Source: a virus. Taken from it: a stretch of 22,903 nt of DNA. Shown here piece after piece: positions 11,652 to 18,322 of the stretch. Each line of letters begins with the position of its first letter. The stretch's first letter is position 1. Where the stretch lies: the IMG/VR virus record IMGVR_UViG_3300020428_000094, positions 1-22,903 of that record; one strand, given 5' to 3'. Made by a program: the position numbers and the translations under genes. Below the pieces are notes generated by a model. That model did not search any database and was not told the DNA's origin. It worked only from the letters and a program-made list of their open reading frames with translations.

Positions 11652-13424
11652 TTAAGCAGGTGCTAAAAGTCCTCCGGGTCTTTGCTCTTTAATAATCGTA
11701 GATTGAACAGCAGCGGCGATTAATTGACCTAACATTTTCCCTTCATTTTCATTTCCTTGTACTTCAGTACCAGAAGCATCAACATTAACAACCACGTTTG
11801 TTCCGCCCCCACCTTCTACGCCTAAAACACCGTTGCGCCTCTTTAAAGGAAGTATTGCTTCAGGTCCGCTTCCTTCTCCCATGATCCCAAATTTCCCAGC
11901 TCCTCCCATTGCAAACATAGTAGGGCTATCGACTACACCACCTTTTGCGTAAGCCGTTAAATGGTTACCACCGCTAAATACATTACCTTTTGCGCTTTTG
12001 GTTGGGCTGAAAATGCCACCTAACAAACTACTAAAAGCACCTGTTAAAGGTTTTGTTATCGACTGTTGAATAGTGATTCTAATCATATCTCTAATAATGC
12101 TATTTGCTAAATCCTTAAATGAAAGCTTGCCCGTCATCACAAAATCAACCAAACTGTCCTCCATTGACTTCAACGACTTCACAACAACATCACCTATTTG
12201 ACCGCCTAAGTCTTCCATTGACCGTGAAAAATCTTTAAGCTTGCCAAGCATCGAGCCACCAAAAGTTTTATCTAATTGAACTTGCAATAAACCAGCTTCT
12301 TTCCTTCCTTCTCTGAAATATTCAGCAGGTGCATTTGATTTTCCACTAAATAACTTATTTATTTTTTCCATATCTCCCTCTAATCTTCCTTCCAATCCTT
12401 CTACAAAATCTTCTCCGTATATCTTCTCCATTCCCCCCTTATATAAATTGACGGCGCCTTCTCCTGCTCCTTTTAAAATATTTCCTGCCCCACCCATCAG
12501 TTTTATTAACCAAGGTGGAACTCTACTAACAATAGAATCAATAGCGTTTTGAATCCTTTTTGCTAAAACTCCAATAGCTCTTAACATTTCATCAAACAAT
12601 CTAATCACCACATAAACAGCCGTTGCAATACCCCTAATGGCTATTTCTATTCCATTAAACAAAGCCGTATAATCATTGTCCGCAGAAAATAATTCTCTAA
12701 AAACTTCAACTATTGCATTTAACGCTGGTAATAAAGCATCTGATAATTGTTTCCTAAACCCATCAAAACCAATCCTCATCATTGTTAATTGGTCGTTAAA
12801 ATATTCTGCATTTTGTGCAAAACCTTCACTAGTGGCATAATTCCATTTATTCATAGCCTCACTACCAGAATTAAGCAAAGGAATTAAACCTGCCCCTTGT
12901 CTACTAAATAACTCCATTGCTAAAGCTGCCTTCGTTGCACCATCAGGCATATCTCTAAATCTGTCAGAGATTTCATTTAAGACTTGTTCAGAGCTTTTAA
13001 AATTTCCTTGTGCATCCCTAACGCTAATACCTAACGCATTAAAAGAATCCTGATAAGTATTAATCCCTTGATCGGCTTCTCTCATTGATTGAGCCAACCG
13101 CCTTAACGCTTTATCAATCGTTACCTGTTCTACCCCTGCTAATTTTCCAGCGTTGACATAAGACTGCAAAGTATCGGCTGCTATCCCTGTTTGACTACTT
13201 AACTTCCCAAAAGCATCTGCTTGATCTATTGCACCTTTTACAAATTTCGTAAATGCTCCCGCCGCTAAAATGACAGCTAACGCTTTAAAAGCAGCCGTTA
13301 GACCACCAACAGCCATCTTTAAATTTTTAACTTTCCCTTGTACTCCTTGCATGGAATTACCCATGCGCTTTATTTGACCTTCCCCGCTTGTCTTGGCAGC
13401 AATGATTATTGGAAACTTAGCCAT
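11652..13424 (-). CDS. H: Tail tape measure protein, lambda gpH-like, short
   Basis: The 590-aa protein follows the two chaperone genes. AAGGAGG at 13436-13442 precedes ATG 13424 by 11 bases, and the start abuts the upstream stop. Residues 1-60 begin with MAKFPIIIAAKTSGEGQIKR and a hydrophobic helix (38-60). Residues about 65-200 contain the family signature (AFGKLSSQTGIAADTLQSYV). Hydrophobic helices near 262-295 could insert in the host membrane. The region near 420-475 (FVMTGKLSFKDLANSIIRDM and ITKPLTGAFSSLLGG) is the C-terminal signature of lambda-type tape measures. The C-terminus is beta-rich and Gly-rich. It sets tail length; at about 0.15 nm per residue it predicts a tail near 90 nm, shorter than lambda's (853-aa gpH). 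This length is an estimate from the family rule. Confidence 0.9.
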   Translation of the reverse strand: MAKFPIIIAAKTSGEGQIKRMGNSMQGVQGKVKNLKMAVGGLTAAFKALAVILAAGAFTKFVKGAIDQADAFGKLSSQTGIAADTLQSYVNAGKLAGVEQVTIDKALRRLAQSMREADQGINTYQDSFNALGISVRDAQGNFKSSEQVLNEISDRFRDMPDGATKAALAMELFSRQGAGLIPLLNSGSEAMNKWNYATSEGFAQNAEYFNDQLTMMRIGFDGFRKQLSDALLPALNAIVEVFRELFSADNDYTALFNGIEIAIRGIATAVYVVIRLFDEMLRAIGVLAKRIQNAIDSIVSRVPPWLIKLMGGAGNILKGAGEGAVNLYKGGMEKIYGEDFVEGLEGRLEGDMEKINKLFSGKSNAPAEYFREGRKEAGLLQVQLDKTFGGSMLGKLKDFSRSMEDLGGQIGDVVVKSLKSMEDSLVDFVMTGKLSFKDLANSIIRDMIRITIQQSITKPLTGAFSSLLGGIFSPTKSAKGNVFSGGNHLTAYAKGGVVDSPTMFAMGGAGKFGIMGEGSGPEAILPLKRRNGVLGVEGGGGTNVVVNVDASGTEVQGNENEGKMLGQLIAAAVQSTIIKEQRPGGLLAPA

Positions 13425-13700
13425 TTATTTTTTAGCCTCCTTATTAATAGCTTCCATAGCTGCTACTTCCATAATTTGAAGACCTTCAAACACAGCTACA
13501 GGATCATCATATTTATACATATCCATAATAGCTAATACGCTTGCATAATTTAAACCAGTTATTCCGCCAAAACTCATATTCCATTGAGTTTGGACACGTA
13601 AAAACATTTCTACAATTTCCCAATTATCAGGCCATACTTCAAAATCTGGTCCCTTTTCTGGCTCAGGTAATGCAATGCCCATCATTGCAGCATCACTCAT
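13425..13700 (-). CDS. T: Tail assembly chaperone frameshift extension (lambda T equivalent, DUF1799-like)
   Basis: This reading frame has the DUF1799 core pattern VWPDNWEIVEMFLRVQTQW, then GGITGLNYASVLAIMDMY, which I recall from tail chaperone extensions. It is open upstream of its first ATG, back to the slippery site at 13757, in the -1 frame relative to the preceding gene. Read through the shift, the extra residues begin LTEAAEYWAAGDKNNTDELM and continue into MSDAAMMG. The fusion would be 224 aa: 114 from the first gene and 110 from this frame. In lambda, gpG and gpGT are made in a fixed ratio and recruit tail tube to the tape measure. The ATG at 13700 has no good ribosome site, so most product is probably the fusion. 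Confidence 0.85.
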   Translation of the reverse strand: MSDAAMMGIALPEPEKGPDFEVWPDNWEIVEMFLRVQTQWNMSFGGITGLNYASVLAIMDMYKYDDPVAVFEGLQIMEVAAMEAINKEAKK

Positions 13701-13728
13701 TAACTCATCTGTATTATTTTTATCCCCA

Positions 13729-13748
13729 GCCGCCCAGTATTCGGCGGC
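13729..13748 (-). promoter_or_regulatory. Stimulatory hairpin of the -1 frameshift
   Basis: On the minus strand GCCGCC (13748-13743) and GGCGGC (13734-13729) form a 6-bp all-GC stem with an 8-base loop. It begins 8 bases after the slippery heptamer, within the usual distance for structures that stall ribosomes and promote slippage. GC-rich runs like this stand out in the AT-rich surroundings. Confidence 0.72.
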
Positions 13749-13753
13749 CTCCG

Positions 13754-14098
13754 TTAGTTTTTTCTTTTGACTCCAGCCATAGAATTAAAGTAAGCAGTTG
13801 CAATAGCAGTTGCTACTAAAGGGATATCTATTAATTGATTTAAGGTTGATTGAGAAAATTTAACAGGGTTGCCGTCATCATCATCAATATTTGTCCAACC
13901 TACTAAAACTTCTCTTACTAAATCAGCATCCGTTATTTCTTCCTCTTGAATTAGTTGGCCCATTTCACGAATACGGGATTGAGTCACCCTTTTAAATTCA
14001 CCATCAAAAGTTTGCCTATCATGCCTGCCACCATCAACAGGAATATCAATAACTACAGGCCATTGATAAGTGTCACTTTGCTTTAAAGTAAAAGCCAT
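13754..14098 (-). CDS. G: Tail assembly chaperone, lambda gpG-like
   Basis: The 114-aa protein lies between tail tube and tape measure, the place of lambda G. It begins with a beta-rich part (MAFTLKQSDTYQWPVVIDIP) and continues with helices (FKRVTQSRIREMGQLIQEEE, ADLVREVLVGWTNIDDDD) and a conserved-looking FSQSTLNQLIDIPLVATAIA helix. It ends ...GVKRKN. The last codons AGA AAA AAC overlap the slippery sequence A AAA AAC directly before TAA, so a share of ribosomes should shift to the -1 frame and add the downstream domain. Known chaperones of this kind coat the tape measure and recruit tail tube subunits and are absent from the virion. No ribosome site is evident before ATG 14098. Confidence 0.86.
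   Translation of the reverse strand: MAFTLKQSDTYQWPVVIDIPVDGGRHDRQTFDGEFKRVTQSRIREMGQLIQEEEITDADLVREVLVGWTNIDDDDGNPVKFSQSTLNQLIDIPLVATAIATAYFNSMAGVKRKN
13757..13763 (-). other. Programmed -1 ribosomal frameshift site (slippery A AAA AAC)
   Basis: In the zero frame the minus strand reads AGA AAA AAC TAA. The heptamer A-AAA-AAC fits X-XXY-YYZ, so both tRNAs can re-pair after a one-base backward slip. The -1 frame then reads CTA ACG GAG GCC and stays open through the downstream DUF1799-like frame. The zero-frame stop directly follows the slip site. The hairpin at 13729-13748 lies 8 bases downstream. Confidence 0.85.
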
Positions 14099-14154: not shown

Positions 14155-15321
14155 TTACTGGAAGACTAAAGCTAACTCGTCGTTACCGCTTGCGCTAGGT
14201 GTTGGGACATAAGGAATAGATAGCATCTGTATCCCTGAATCATCTGAATAAGTTGGGTTGCCAATATCACAAACAGGCATTACAGCGCTAACAATATTTC
14301 CTGCTGTAGTTCCATGCTGGAAGCAAACACGTCCTGTTGTGTTGTCATTTGCAATAGTAAAGAAGTCTTTCTGTGCAATGGTTGGTGCTTCAACAACGAT
14401 TTCACCTGTTGGTGCTCTGTTAGTTAAAAGCACCTCAGTTGATCCCCCGACAAGCTCTCTATAAACGATTTCATTAGACATATCAACGTTAATATTTGAA
14501 ATCTTGGCAGTGTCGTAATCCATCACAGAAACAGCAACGGTATTACCTGATTTAAATAAAACGGGTGTTGTCTGATTTGAATAGGTTGTAGCAGGAAGTG
14601 CGGTATCTGTTGGCGCCACATATTGCCCCGTCATGGAGAAGTTAAATGTAGGAATTTCGCCTAGCCCAAGTGACATATTTACACTTCCTCGACAACCCAC
14701 CGCTTTATGTAAAACGCCTGAGTTATTGAAATAAATAGTGGTTGATTCAAAGCCTGTTGATATTGGTAGATATTTTACGTTGGCACTAATTGAATAACCT
14801 GAACTTGATCCAGGAACAAAGGTCGCTGTTCCGCCGGGTTTTACTGTGGCTACTTTTGAACTACCTACATAATCAACAATCAAGCCTTTATGACCGTTAC
14901 CTGTTCCGCTAGTTATGGTTATTGTCATTCCTACGTAAATATCATCTGTTGCGCTAGCACCTGATGCAAGAGTTATAGAACCTGCGCTTCCTGCCTGTGA
15001 TGATCCTGTTACTGCTGATCCTGTAGTAGTAGAAGACATACCGCAAGCTCTAAGCAAGCTATCCATTCTTGAAGGGGTCGCGGCGGCTCCAGATCCCGCA
15101 ACCTCAACCTCGAAATTTAACGCCACTCTGACATTACTTAAGAGCTGGTCACTATTTCCCATGTAAGACCTAATCAGATCTCTACTTACTGTTTCCGCTT
15201 CGATAGGTGTTACATCTAAATTTCTTACTAATAGCGCATCCGTTCCAGCAGGGCTGCTGTCGCTTCCTGAACTGCTTTCAAGTTTTGTTTGAATCAGCCT
15301 AGATCTTGAGAGTAATGCCAC
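14155..15321 (-). CDS. V: Major tail tube protein (gpV position)
   Basis: The 388-aa protein starts at GTG 15321. The first 80 residues (RLIQTKLESSSGSDSSPAGT, then ALLVRNLDVTPIEAETVSRD) and the following VRVALNFEVEVAGSG and MDSLLRACGMS are typical of siphovirus tail tube proteins of the Phage_tube_2 kind. At residues about 112-165 is an inserted Ser/Gly/Thr-rich beta segment (SITLASGASATDDIYVGMTI), seen in related marine and proteobacterial phage tubes. The C-terminal half repeats tube-like strands (SVNMSLGLGEIPTFNFSMTG). It would form hexameric rings of the tail shaft. It stands directly before the G/GT chaperones, as V does in lambda. A 59-bp gap precedes it, one of the largest here, and may hold its own promoter. 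Confidence 0.85.
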   Translation of the reverse strand: MALLSRSRLIQTKLESSSGSDSSPAGTDALLVRNLDVTPIEAETVSRDLIRSYMGNSDQLLSNVRVALNFEVEVAGSGAAATPSRMDSLLRACGMSSTTTGSAVTGSSQAGSAGSITLASGASATDDIYVGMTITITSGTGNGHKGLIVDYVGSSKVATVKPGGTATFVPGSSSGYSISANVKYLPISTGFESTTIYFNNSGVLHKAVGCRGSVNMSLGLGEIPTFNFSMTGQYVAPTDTALPATTYSNQTTPVLFKSGNTVAVSVMDYDTAKISNINVDMSNEIVYRELVGGSTEVLLTNRAPTGEIVVEAPTIAQKDFFTIANDNTTGRVCFQHGTTAGNIVSAVMPVCDIGNPTYSDDSGIQMLSIPYVPTPSASGNDELALVFQ

Positions 15322-16339: not shown

Positions 16340-18322
16340 TTAGGTTGTAACGTCTAAGCAAGCAGCAAATGCAGAGGCTTGTCTTACAGCAACGTCAATT
16401 GTTGTAATAGCTCTGACACTTGTTAATGCCTTGCTGAAGTCATCGGAATCTGTACCAATTTCAACTTCTAAACCGTTACCCCATACACCCAAGGCAACTT
16501 GTGAGAAGTCACCAAAGATAACAGCAGAACAAACACTAGAGCTAGATCCTTTAGTTAGGTTGCTAGGTACGTTTGTTGATACTCCTATTGGATAGCCGTT
16601 AATAACGCCCGGTGTGCCGCCACGACCAATGCCGCTTGTATCAGTGTTCCAAAGGAAAGAACCGTCACCAGCCGCAGAACCACCAGCTCTTAGTTTCTTC
16701 AATTCAGAAAGAACTTTAGGGTTAGTTGCATAGGCCATGCTTGGACCCATTGCGTTGTCTACTAATACTTCTTCCTCAAGATTGACAAGAGTTTCAAGAG
16801 TAATAGCGCCACCGTTTGTGCCGATAGCAACAGAACCAATTCCTGAAGTTCCGGTAATACCTGTTGGCTGACCAGAAGAACCAGAACCAGCAATTACAGC
16901 AGCGTCAATACCAACGTTGATTGTGTCGGTCAAGTCACGCCTAATAAGCTCCTCAATTCCTGGAGTTGCTTGTAGAAGTGTTTGACGAGAGAACTTACTT
17001 AAAGCAGCGTAGTTCTTAGGTGCCAAAGTCACTTGGTCAAAGGTTGACTCTGATTGAGTGATTGCTGTTGTCTCGTTTGCCAACCAATAGCCAGTTGAAA
17101 CTGCACTACGGCGAGGAATTGCAACATCACCAACTAAGCCGGGAAGTGTGCGAATACCTAAAGCGCCTGTAATTGTGTTAGCTCTTAAGGCCTCAATAAA
17201 CTGATCTGCTAAAAGGTCAGTCGCTACAAGGTTGCCTCCAGTTGTTGCTCCAGAGGTTACATAAGTTGCCCTTTGAGTTAGTGCAGAATAAGGAATTAAG
17301 AAACTACGGTCAGCAGATCTTTTAATACCTGAACGCTCAACTTCGTCTGAAAGCTCACGAACTAAACCAGCTTCACGAGATGACCAATCACCTGTAAGAA
17401 CTGCCTTAATACCAGCGGCAATGCTGTAACGCTCCTCTGTCTTTGCATCCATCTCTACAGGAGAGACAGTCTCAACAGGCTTTGCTTGAATCTTATCTAA
17501 AGCAATTGCTCTAGCTTCTTCAAGTGAGGTGCCTTTTGAAATAAGGCTATCTTTTAATTCTTCTCCTAGTTGATGCGAATTACATAAACCAGTAATTTCT
17601 CTTATGCGGTTGCGCTCATCAGAAGCCGCTTTTTTGGAAGCTTCAGAACGCACCACTTCAAGGTCAGGGGTGCTAGTCATCTCAGTTTTACTTTGAGGGT
17701 TTTTGGTTAGTGGTGCATCAGAAGACGCAACGGCGCTTTCACGCTGTTCTTGCATATTAACTGAATCTTGCTCCGTAGACATATTAACCTTATTATTCTC
17801 CTCTTTTAATTCCTTAGATCTTCCTATCCCAGATTGCGAATAGTCAGCAGGCACAGTTACGATACTTACCTCCGCTGGCTGGAAGCCAATAACTCGGTAG
17901 TAGTTCTTATCAGGCTCCTCTTTTCTTTCTTCTTCCTGTGTTTTAGTCACGCTATAACCCACGCTGACATTCTTCAATATCCCATCATTAATTAGGCCTA
18001 AGACTTCTTCACCTCTTTCATGCTTACCTAGTCTAACTGTGACAAATCCTCTCTTATCTTTTATCCAAGATTTTTCAACTACTCCTAAAACATCATCAGA
18101 ATTATGGTTATAAAGCAAGGGTGCTGAAGACATTAACCTACTTTGGTCTACTGAATCCTCGCTAAAATCCAACACTTCATAACCTAGATAGCCCCGATTT
18201 ACTGGCTCCTCAGATCCATACGGAAAAGTCAAAGTTCTTTTATCTTTATCAATTTTAAAATCAACCGCTTCTGAACGGTGTTGAATCTGCCCCTCTAAAT
18301 CACGCTGTTTCTTCTTTGTCAT
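16340..18322 (-). CDS. Prohead protease fused to HK97-fold major capsid protein
   Basis: One 660-aa frame joins two phage proteins. Residues 15-165 match the HK97-type prohead protease (peptidase S78), with candidate catalytic His73 (PLLYNHNSDD), Ser120 (LKNVSVGYSV) and an acidic residue at Glu152 (PAEVSIVTVP). Residues about 181-345 are charged and helical (DERNRIREITGLCNSHQLGE), like the delta/scaffold domain that the protease removes. Residues about 350-660 are an HK97 major capsid protein (TYVTSGATTGGNLVATDLLA, LGIRTLPGLVGDVAIPRRSA, PKNYAALSKFSRQTLLQATP). The shell needs hundreds of capsid copies but few proteases, so the internal start at Met181 (17782) may supply protease-free subunits. 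It overlaps the portal gene by 23 bases and ends at a strong terminator. No gpD-like decoration gene adjoins it. Confidence 0.92.
   Translation of the reverse strand: MTKKKQRDLEGQIQHRSEAVDFKIDKDKRTLTFPYGSEEPVNRGYLGYEVLDFSEDSVDQSRLMSSAPLLYNHNSDDVLGVVEKSWIKDKRGFVTVRLGKHERGEEVLGLINDGILKNVSVGYSVTKTQEEERKEEPDKNYYRVIGFQPAEVSIVTVPADYSQSGIGRSKELKEENNKVNMSTEQDSVNMQEQRESAVASSDAPLTKNPQSKTEMTSTPDLEVVRSEASKKAASDERNRIREITGLCNSHQLGEELKDSLISKGTSLEEARAIALDKIQAKPVETVSPVEMDAKTEERYSIAAGIKAVLTGDWSSREAGLVRELSDEVERSGIKRSADRSFLIPYSALTQRATYVTSGATTGGNLVATDLLADQFIEALRANTITGALGIRTLPGLVGDVAIPRRSAVSTGYWLANETTAITQSESTFDQVTLAPKNYAALSKFSRQTLLQATPGIEELIRRDLTDTINVGIDAAVIAGSGSSGQPTGITGTSGIGSVAIGTNGGAITLETLVNLEEEVLVDNAMGPSMAYATNPKVLSELKKLRAGGSAAGDGSFLWNTDTSGIGRGGTPGVINGYPIGVSTNVPSNLTKGSSSSVCSAVIFGDFSQVALGVWGNGLEVEIGTDSDDFSKALTSVRAITTIDVAVRQASAFAACLDVTT
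17780..17804 (-). promoter_or_regulatory. Internal translation start inside protease-capsid gene
   Basis: On the minus strand AGAGGAG (17804-17798) lies 15 bases, and AAGG (17791-17788) 5 bases, upstream of an in-frame ATG at 17782, which encodes Met181. The next codons read STEQDSVN. The site falls in a low-complexity linker (KELKEENNKVN) right between protease and scaffold-like domains, where a start would yield a 480-aa scaffold-capsid protein. Lambda makes its scaffold Nu3 from an in-frame start inside C. Confidence 0.6.

Follow-up and report, generated by a model that had tools for sequence, protein, structure and literature searches.

The window analysed here, the whole 22,903-base stretch of a virus record, derives from an uncultured aquatic phage and carries on its minus strand an ordinary siphophage structural module, which includes a GpA-type terminase, a lambda-family portal, a capsid protein, a tail tube protein, two frames and a tape measure protein. 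The terminase was closest to those of the Synechococcus phages S-CBS3 and S-CBS1 (44-45% identity), a likeness that does not fix the host. The phage is an uncultured siphophage with a lambda-type portal and a GpA-type terminase, distantly related to the Synechococcus siphophages, and no near DNA-level match to the segment 11652-14098 was found in phage records. On the same strand, a single 660-aa frame (16340-18322) joins a Peptidase_S78 prohead protease to an HK97-type capsid protein.

The two frames are situated between the tail tube and tape measure genes in the order tube - TAC - DUF1799 - tape measure, and the start codon of the tape measure gene adjoins the stop codon of the DUF1799 frame (Table 1). 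The first frame matched Pfam Phage_TAC_4 (E 1.5e-5; 25.6 bits, exceeding the cut-off of 21.1) and phrog_569 (4e-21), the second matched Pfam DUF1799 (PF08809; E 2.8e-18; 66.4 bits with a gathering score of 26) and phrog_680 (1.3e-25), and phrog_17368 spans both of them. The structure model of the G-like chaperone reached a pLDDT of 79, and its comparison with the PDB by Foldseek and VIA-align returned nothing with E <0.001 or Z >3.3; the structure model of DUF1799 was of low confidence. Searches of the G and DUF1799 profiles against solved structures gave nothing usable, and ribosomal L20, which appeared in them with E values of 0.04 to 0.5, was rejected as a structural relative, as it looks like a chance similarity of helices.

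Table 1. Features of the chaperone locus and its flanking genes in the window.
Feature	Position	Strand	Basis
Tail tube protein, upstream context	14155..15321	-	Pfam Phage_tube_2, 7e-18
G-like tail assembly chaperone, zero-frame product, 114 aa	13754..14098	-	Pfam Phage_TAC_4 and phrog_569
SD-like GGAG, probable 5' stimulator, 7 nt upstream of the heptamer	13771..13774	-	codon choice in relatives
Slippery heptamer A AAA AAC, in the final two sense codons ahead of TAA	13757..13763	-	sequence and relatives
Zero-frame stop TAA, right after the heptamer	13754..13756	-	sequence
GC-rich hairpin of 7 bp, probable 3' stimulator	13728..13749	-	fold, synonymous null, compensatory change
-1-frame T-like extension, 110 codons and stop, DUF1799	13425..13757	-	Pfam, phrog_680 and conservation
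Tape measure protein, directly downstream	11652..13424	-	Pfam Tape_meas_lam_C, 1e-20

A slippery heptamer at the end of the chaperone gene

The chaperone frame ends in GTC AAA AGA AAA AAC TAA, in which the heptamer A AAA AAC (13763-13757) is in phase as X XXY YYZ. From 13757, the -1 frame begins LTEAAEYWAAGDKNNTDELMSD... and stays open for 110 codons to 13425, which gives a predicted fusion of 224 aa. The initial annotation had proposed this heptamer before the stop codon and a -1 frame running into a DUF1799-like frame; the sequence, phase and coordinates of the former agreed with our analysis, and the latter was borne out by the Pfam match. Among the ORFs of the window, only this one contains an in-frame A AAA AAC, and the chaperone is the only one of the 22 minus-strand ORFs that ends in any X XXY YYZ heptamer. 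The string AAAAAAC occurs twice in the window, where 11 copies were expected; compared with dinucleotide shuffles, it is about five-fold depleted across positions 1-22903. A -1 extension of at least 100 codons after the stop was found for 9 of 22 ORFs in the window. Such open frames are common here because the next gene lies in that frame; therefore, openness alone is weak evidence, and it is conservation that counts.

Conservation of the junction in relatives

Two scans of viral contigs yielded 129 loci, and 123 sequences, including the window, hold both parts. All 123 have X XXA AAC at the end of the first gene and a -1 frame that stays open into DUF1799; the heptamer is A AAA AAC in 90 loci and G GGA AAC in the other 33, and 70 distinct junctions are represented. 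Twelve of the 14 cultured phages examined also carry the heptamer in the last two codons together with an open -1 frame. In isolate ZDD2 the heptamer lies three codons earlier, and isolate Scapp has no heptamer, yet its record annotates a joined product. A check of related phages for -1-frame stops that separate the slip site from the downstream ORF had been suggested earlier; none of the 123 loci and none of the 14 isolates has such a stop. Homopolymer errors are known to occur in metagenome contigs, and a single gene broken by an assembly or sequencing error might look like the present pair of frames; however, the same -1 relation in 123 loci and in cultured phage genomes refutes this explanation, the probability of which we consider negligible.

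On the tree of the fusion, four switches from one heptamer to the other are needed; well-supported branches force at least three of these, and none of the switches led to a non-slippery sequence (the tree took in the residues of the heptamer itself, which is a minor flaw). Inside the marine clade, two loci (L022 and L023) have switched from G GGA AAC to A AAA AAC, which replaces Gly with Lys and keeps the slipperiness. This switch is the strongest sign that the heptamer is selected for slipping, not for its codons; single heptamer switches could also be explained by recombination. The second slip codon was AAC in every X XXA AAN heptamer at the junctions (L002-L144 included) and never AAG, which is the slip codon favoured in bacteria.

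Since the heptamer of the window opens with six A residues, the two frames could in principle be linked by slippage of the polymerase during transcription instead of slippage of the ribosome. However, six A residues are short for the polymerase, with runs of nine cited in a review (PMC5009743). Moreover, G GGA AAC, in which no run exceeds three, occurs with the same frame relation throughout a marine clade and in several isolates, and the conserved phase of the heptamer, together with the hairpin and the spacing, is consistent with ribosomal slippage. These observations make the transcriptional explanation extremely unlikely.

The -1 frame is conserved as protein ahead of its first start codon

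The first in-frame start codon of the -1 frame is ATG 13700, and the 19 codons from the slip site to this position are conserved as -1-frame protein. The segment ahead of the ATG reads LTEAAEYWAAGD..., in which L1, A4, W8, G11 and D17 are invariant across 22 sequences, and the window differs from L003 in these codons by 6 synonymous and 2 non-synonymous changes. In relatives, the DUF1799 extension is conserved from its first codon on, and the strongest constraint on synonymous sites was located at the junction. Furthermore, in 43 of the 123 loci the -1 frame lacks any ATG, GTG or TTG for at least the first 104 nt past the stop, and the first start in such loci often falls within the DUF1799 domain.

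These results bear on the possibility that DUF1799 is a separate gene translated from ATG 13700, through its own ribosome binding site or through termination-reinitiation, with an accidental -1 overlap. The window does contain this ATG, and S-CBS1 and S-CBS3 have separate genes annotated in their public records. However, a clear SD sequence was not found before 13700, and the conserved segment ahead of the ATG cannot be supplied by a separate start; nor does a separate gene accommodate the loci with late starts or explain why a slippery heptamer occurs at the exact spot in relatives. We thus consider a separate gene very unlikely, and on the comparative data it was rejected together with the transcriptional slippage and the assembly error. 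The proposal of the initial annotation that the downstream frame is a 110-aa extension of a 224-aa fusion is in line with the gene families, the gene order and the conservation in relatives.

A downstream hairpin and an upstream GGAG as probable stimulators

Downstream of the heptamer, the arms GCCGCC (13748-13743) and GGCGGC (13734-13729) form a stem that encloses the loop GAATACTG and is extended to 7 bp by a G-U pair (13749-13728), with a fold energy of about -14.8 kcal/mol. An all-GC 6-bp hairpin at 13729-13748, 8 bases downstream, had been described before; the fold reproduced it and added the closing G-U pair. The spacer measures 7 nt to the G-U pair and 8 nt to the all-GC stem, and this spacing falls in the range of three-part -1 signals, in which the stem-loop lies about 5-8 nt downstream of the heptamer (PMC4066793). 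Because the encoded Ala-Ala pairs account in part for the high GC content of the stem, a synonymous null was used. When the downstream segment was recoded synonymously with the codon usage of the window, equal stability was rare (z -2.69, p 0.007), and the stem uses GCC, which makes up 8% of the Ala codons of the window. In 27 lineages, each recoded with the phage's own codon usage, the mean z was -1.74, compared with -0.24 at 270 control positions. The results showed that the stability of the hairpin exceeds what the encoded protein requires. The same recoding gave no significant hairpin in some lineages (e.g., L065, L136, L142, L144 and L137); the hairpin is common among the lineages, not universal.

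Comparison of the window with L002 revealed one stem pair changed from C-G to G-C via two synonymous changes, and two more pairs altered by wobble. The five core pairs are formed by each of 30 distinct junctions from the freshwater clade, with one replacement of C-G by U-A. The 3' arm in the freshwater clade lies about four bases further on; therefore, it is the structure that is kept, not the sequence. Far longer stems occupy the same place in S-LBS1, Silvanus and IME347. A search by eye for a pseudoknot formed by the hairpin loop with bases further downstream gave a 3-bp option only, and this was dropped.

Upstream of the heptamer, sequences of the A AAA AAC clade with Gly at the position of the GGAG use the codon GGA in 27 of 30 distinct cases, against a background of about 11% in those phages; because these sequences share ancestry, the count should not be read as a probability. 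This Gly codon is the best-conserved Gly codon of the fusion. Neither the clade with G GGA AAC nor the Synechococcus isolates have the GGAG at the position seen in the window. An upstream SD-like GGAG serves IS911 as a stimulator, and dnaX has a similar element (PMC4066793, PMC5600365); by analogy, the GGAG probably stimulates frameshifting in the window as well. The frameshift signal had been called complete in the initial annotation, which had missed the likely upstream GGAG.

Discussion

The signal and its conservation suggest that the tail module very probably contains a programmed -1 ribosomal frameshift of the lambda G/GT type. We infer the slippage itself, its rate and the roles of both proteins from the signal anatomy, the families and the conservation that were observed. 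Most ribosomes would translate the 114-aa chaperone G and then stop at TAA. A minority would be paused by the hairpin ahead, and probably by a pairing of GGAG with the 16S rRNA behind, while AAA occupies the P site and AAC the A site; these ribosomes would slip back by one base to AAA AAA and read 110 codons to afford the 224-aa G-DUF1799 fusion. The predicted junction peptide is NLTEAAEYWAAGDK if the slip takes place in the A site after decoding, or LTEAAEYWAAGDK preceded by Lys if it takes place in the P site. In lambda, G coats the tape measure protein and a few GT fusions recruit tail tube subunits, and both G and GT leave before the tail is completed (PMC5009743). On the lambda analogy, G in the present phage would coat the tape measure protein, and the DUF1799 part would recruit tail tube subunits.

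A lambda-type system needs a fusion level of a few per cent only, and a level of this order, like the low-level shifting of lambda, is expected here. Two chaperone frameshifts measured in other systems reached 6 and 7% (PMC3711429), and halophilic archaeal viruses, too, have G GGA AAC and A AAA AAC as their slip sites (PMC5009743). In Escherichia coli, A AAA AAC shifts far less readily than A AAA AAG (PMC5009743, PMC4066793). Given this weakness of the heptamer in E. coli, the earlier description of the frameshift as efficient is unsupported.

The frameshift of phage lambda gpG/gpGT and its counterparts in long-tailed phages were reportedly described by Xu, Hendrix and Duda in 2004, and a review covers them (PMC5009743). 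The lambda site, with the heptamer G GGA AAG, resembles the present locus in its place between the tail tube and tape measure genes, in a heptamer near the end of G, in a -1 extension that continues as T and in the low level of fusion expected, whereas the window has A AAA AAC, a DUF1799 extension and, in addition, a hairpin and GGAG. In the Acinetobacter phage Loki (gp12/gp13), the same heptamer directly precedes the stop of the first chaperone gene (PMC5313236); the host and sequence context differ, and the likeness rests on the published description. For Silvanus (Stenotrophomonas) and Scapp (Serratia), a DUF1799-homologous extension is recorded as a joined T1-type tape measure chaperone frameshift product. 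Silvanus shares A AAA AAC and has an 11-bp hairpin, whereas the identity of the two to the window is about 30-36% and Scapp is without the heptamer. The closest isolates are the Synechococcus phages S-CBS1, S-CBS3 and S-LBS1, which resemble the window in the heptamer A AAA AAC, in the open -1 frame and in the hairpin, but share 33-43% identity with it, lack its GGAG and have the frameshift unannotated in their records. IS911 and dnaX combine an upstream SD-like GGAG, an A-rich heptamer and a downstream stem-loop (PMC4066793); unlike in the window, their heptamer ends in G and other genes are involved, and the purpose of the dnaX frameshift differs. G/GT frameshifting is textbook knowledge from lambda and the majority of long-tailed phages, the motif and its place have been published for Loki, and DUF1799 frameshift products have already been annotated; the combination of stimulators is possibly new.

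The frameshift is not mentioned in the paper on S-LBS1. Its record (L132, MG271909.1, 3001-3722) calls the chaperone 'ATPase component of the ABC-type cobalamin transport system', places an antisense ORF over the slip site and reduces the DUF1799 extension to a short fragment, and the records of S-CBS1 and S-CBS3 start the extension late. The records of these three phages thus miss or cut the extension, and both they and the window should have the downstream ORF annotated as the C-terminal portion of the fusion. Moreover, the alignment represents a natural experiment in which a phage lineage retains the frameshift signal while the slip site and the stimulators change.
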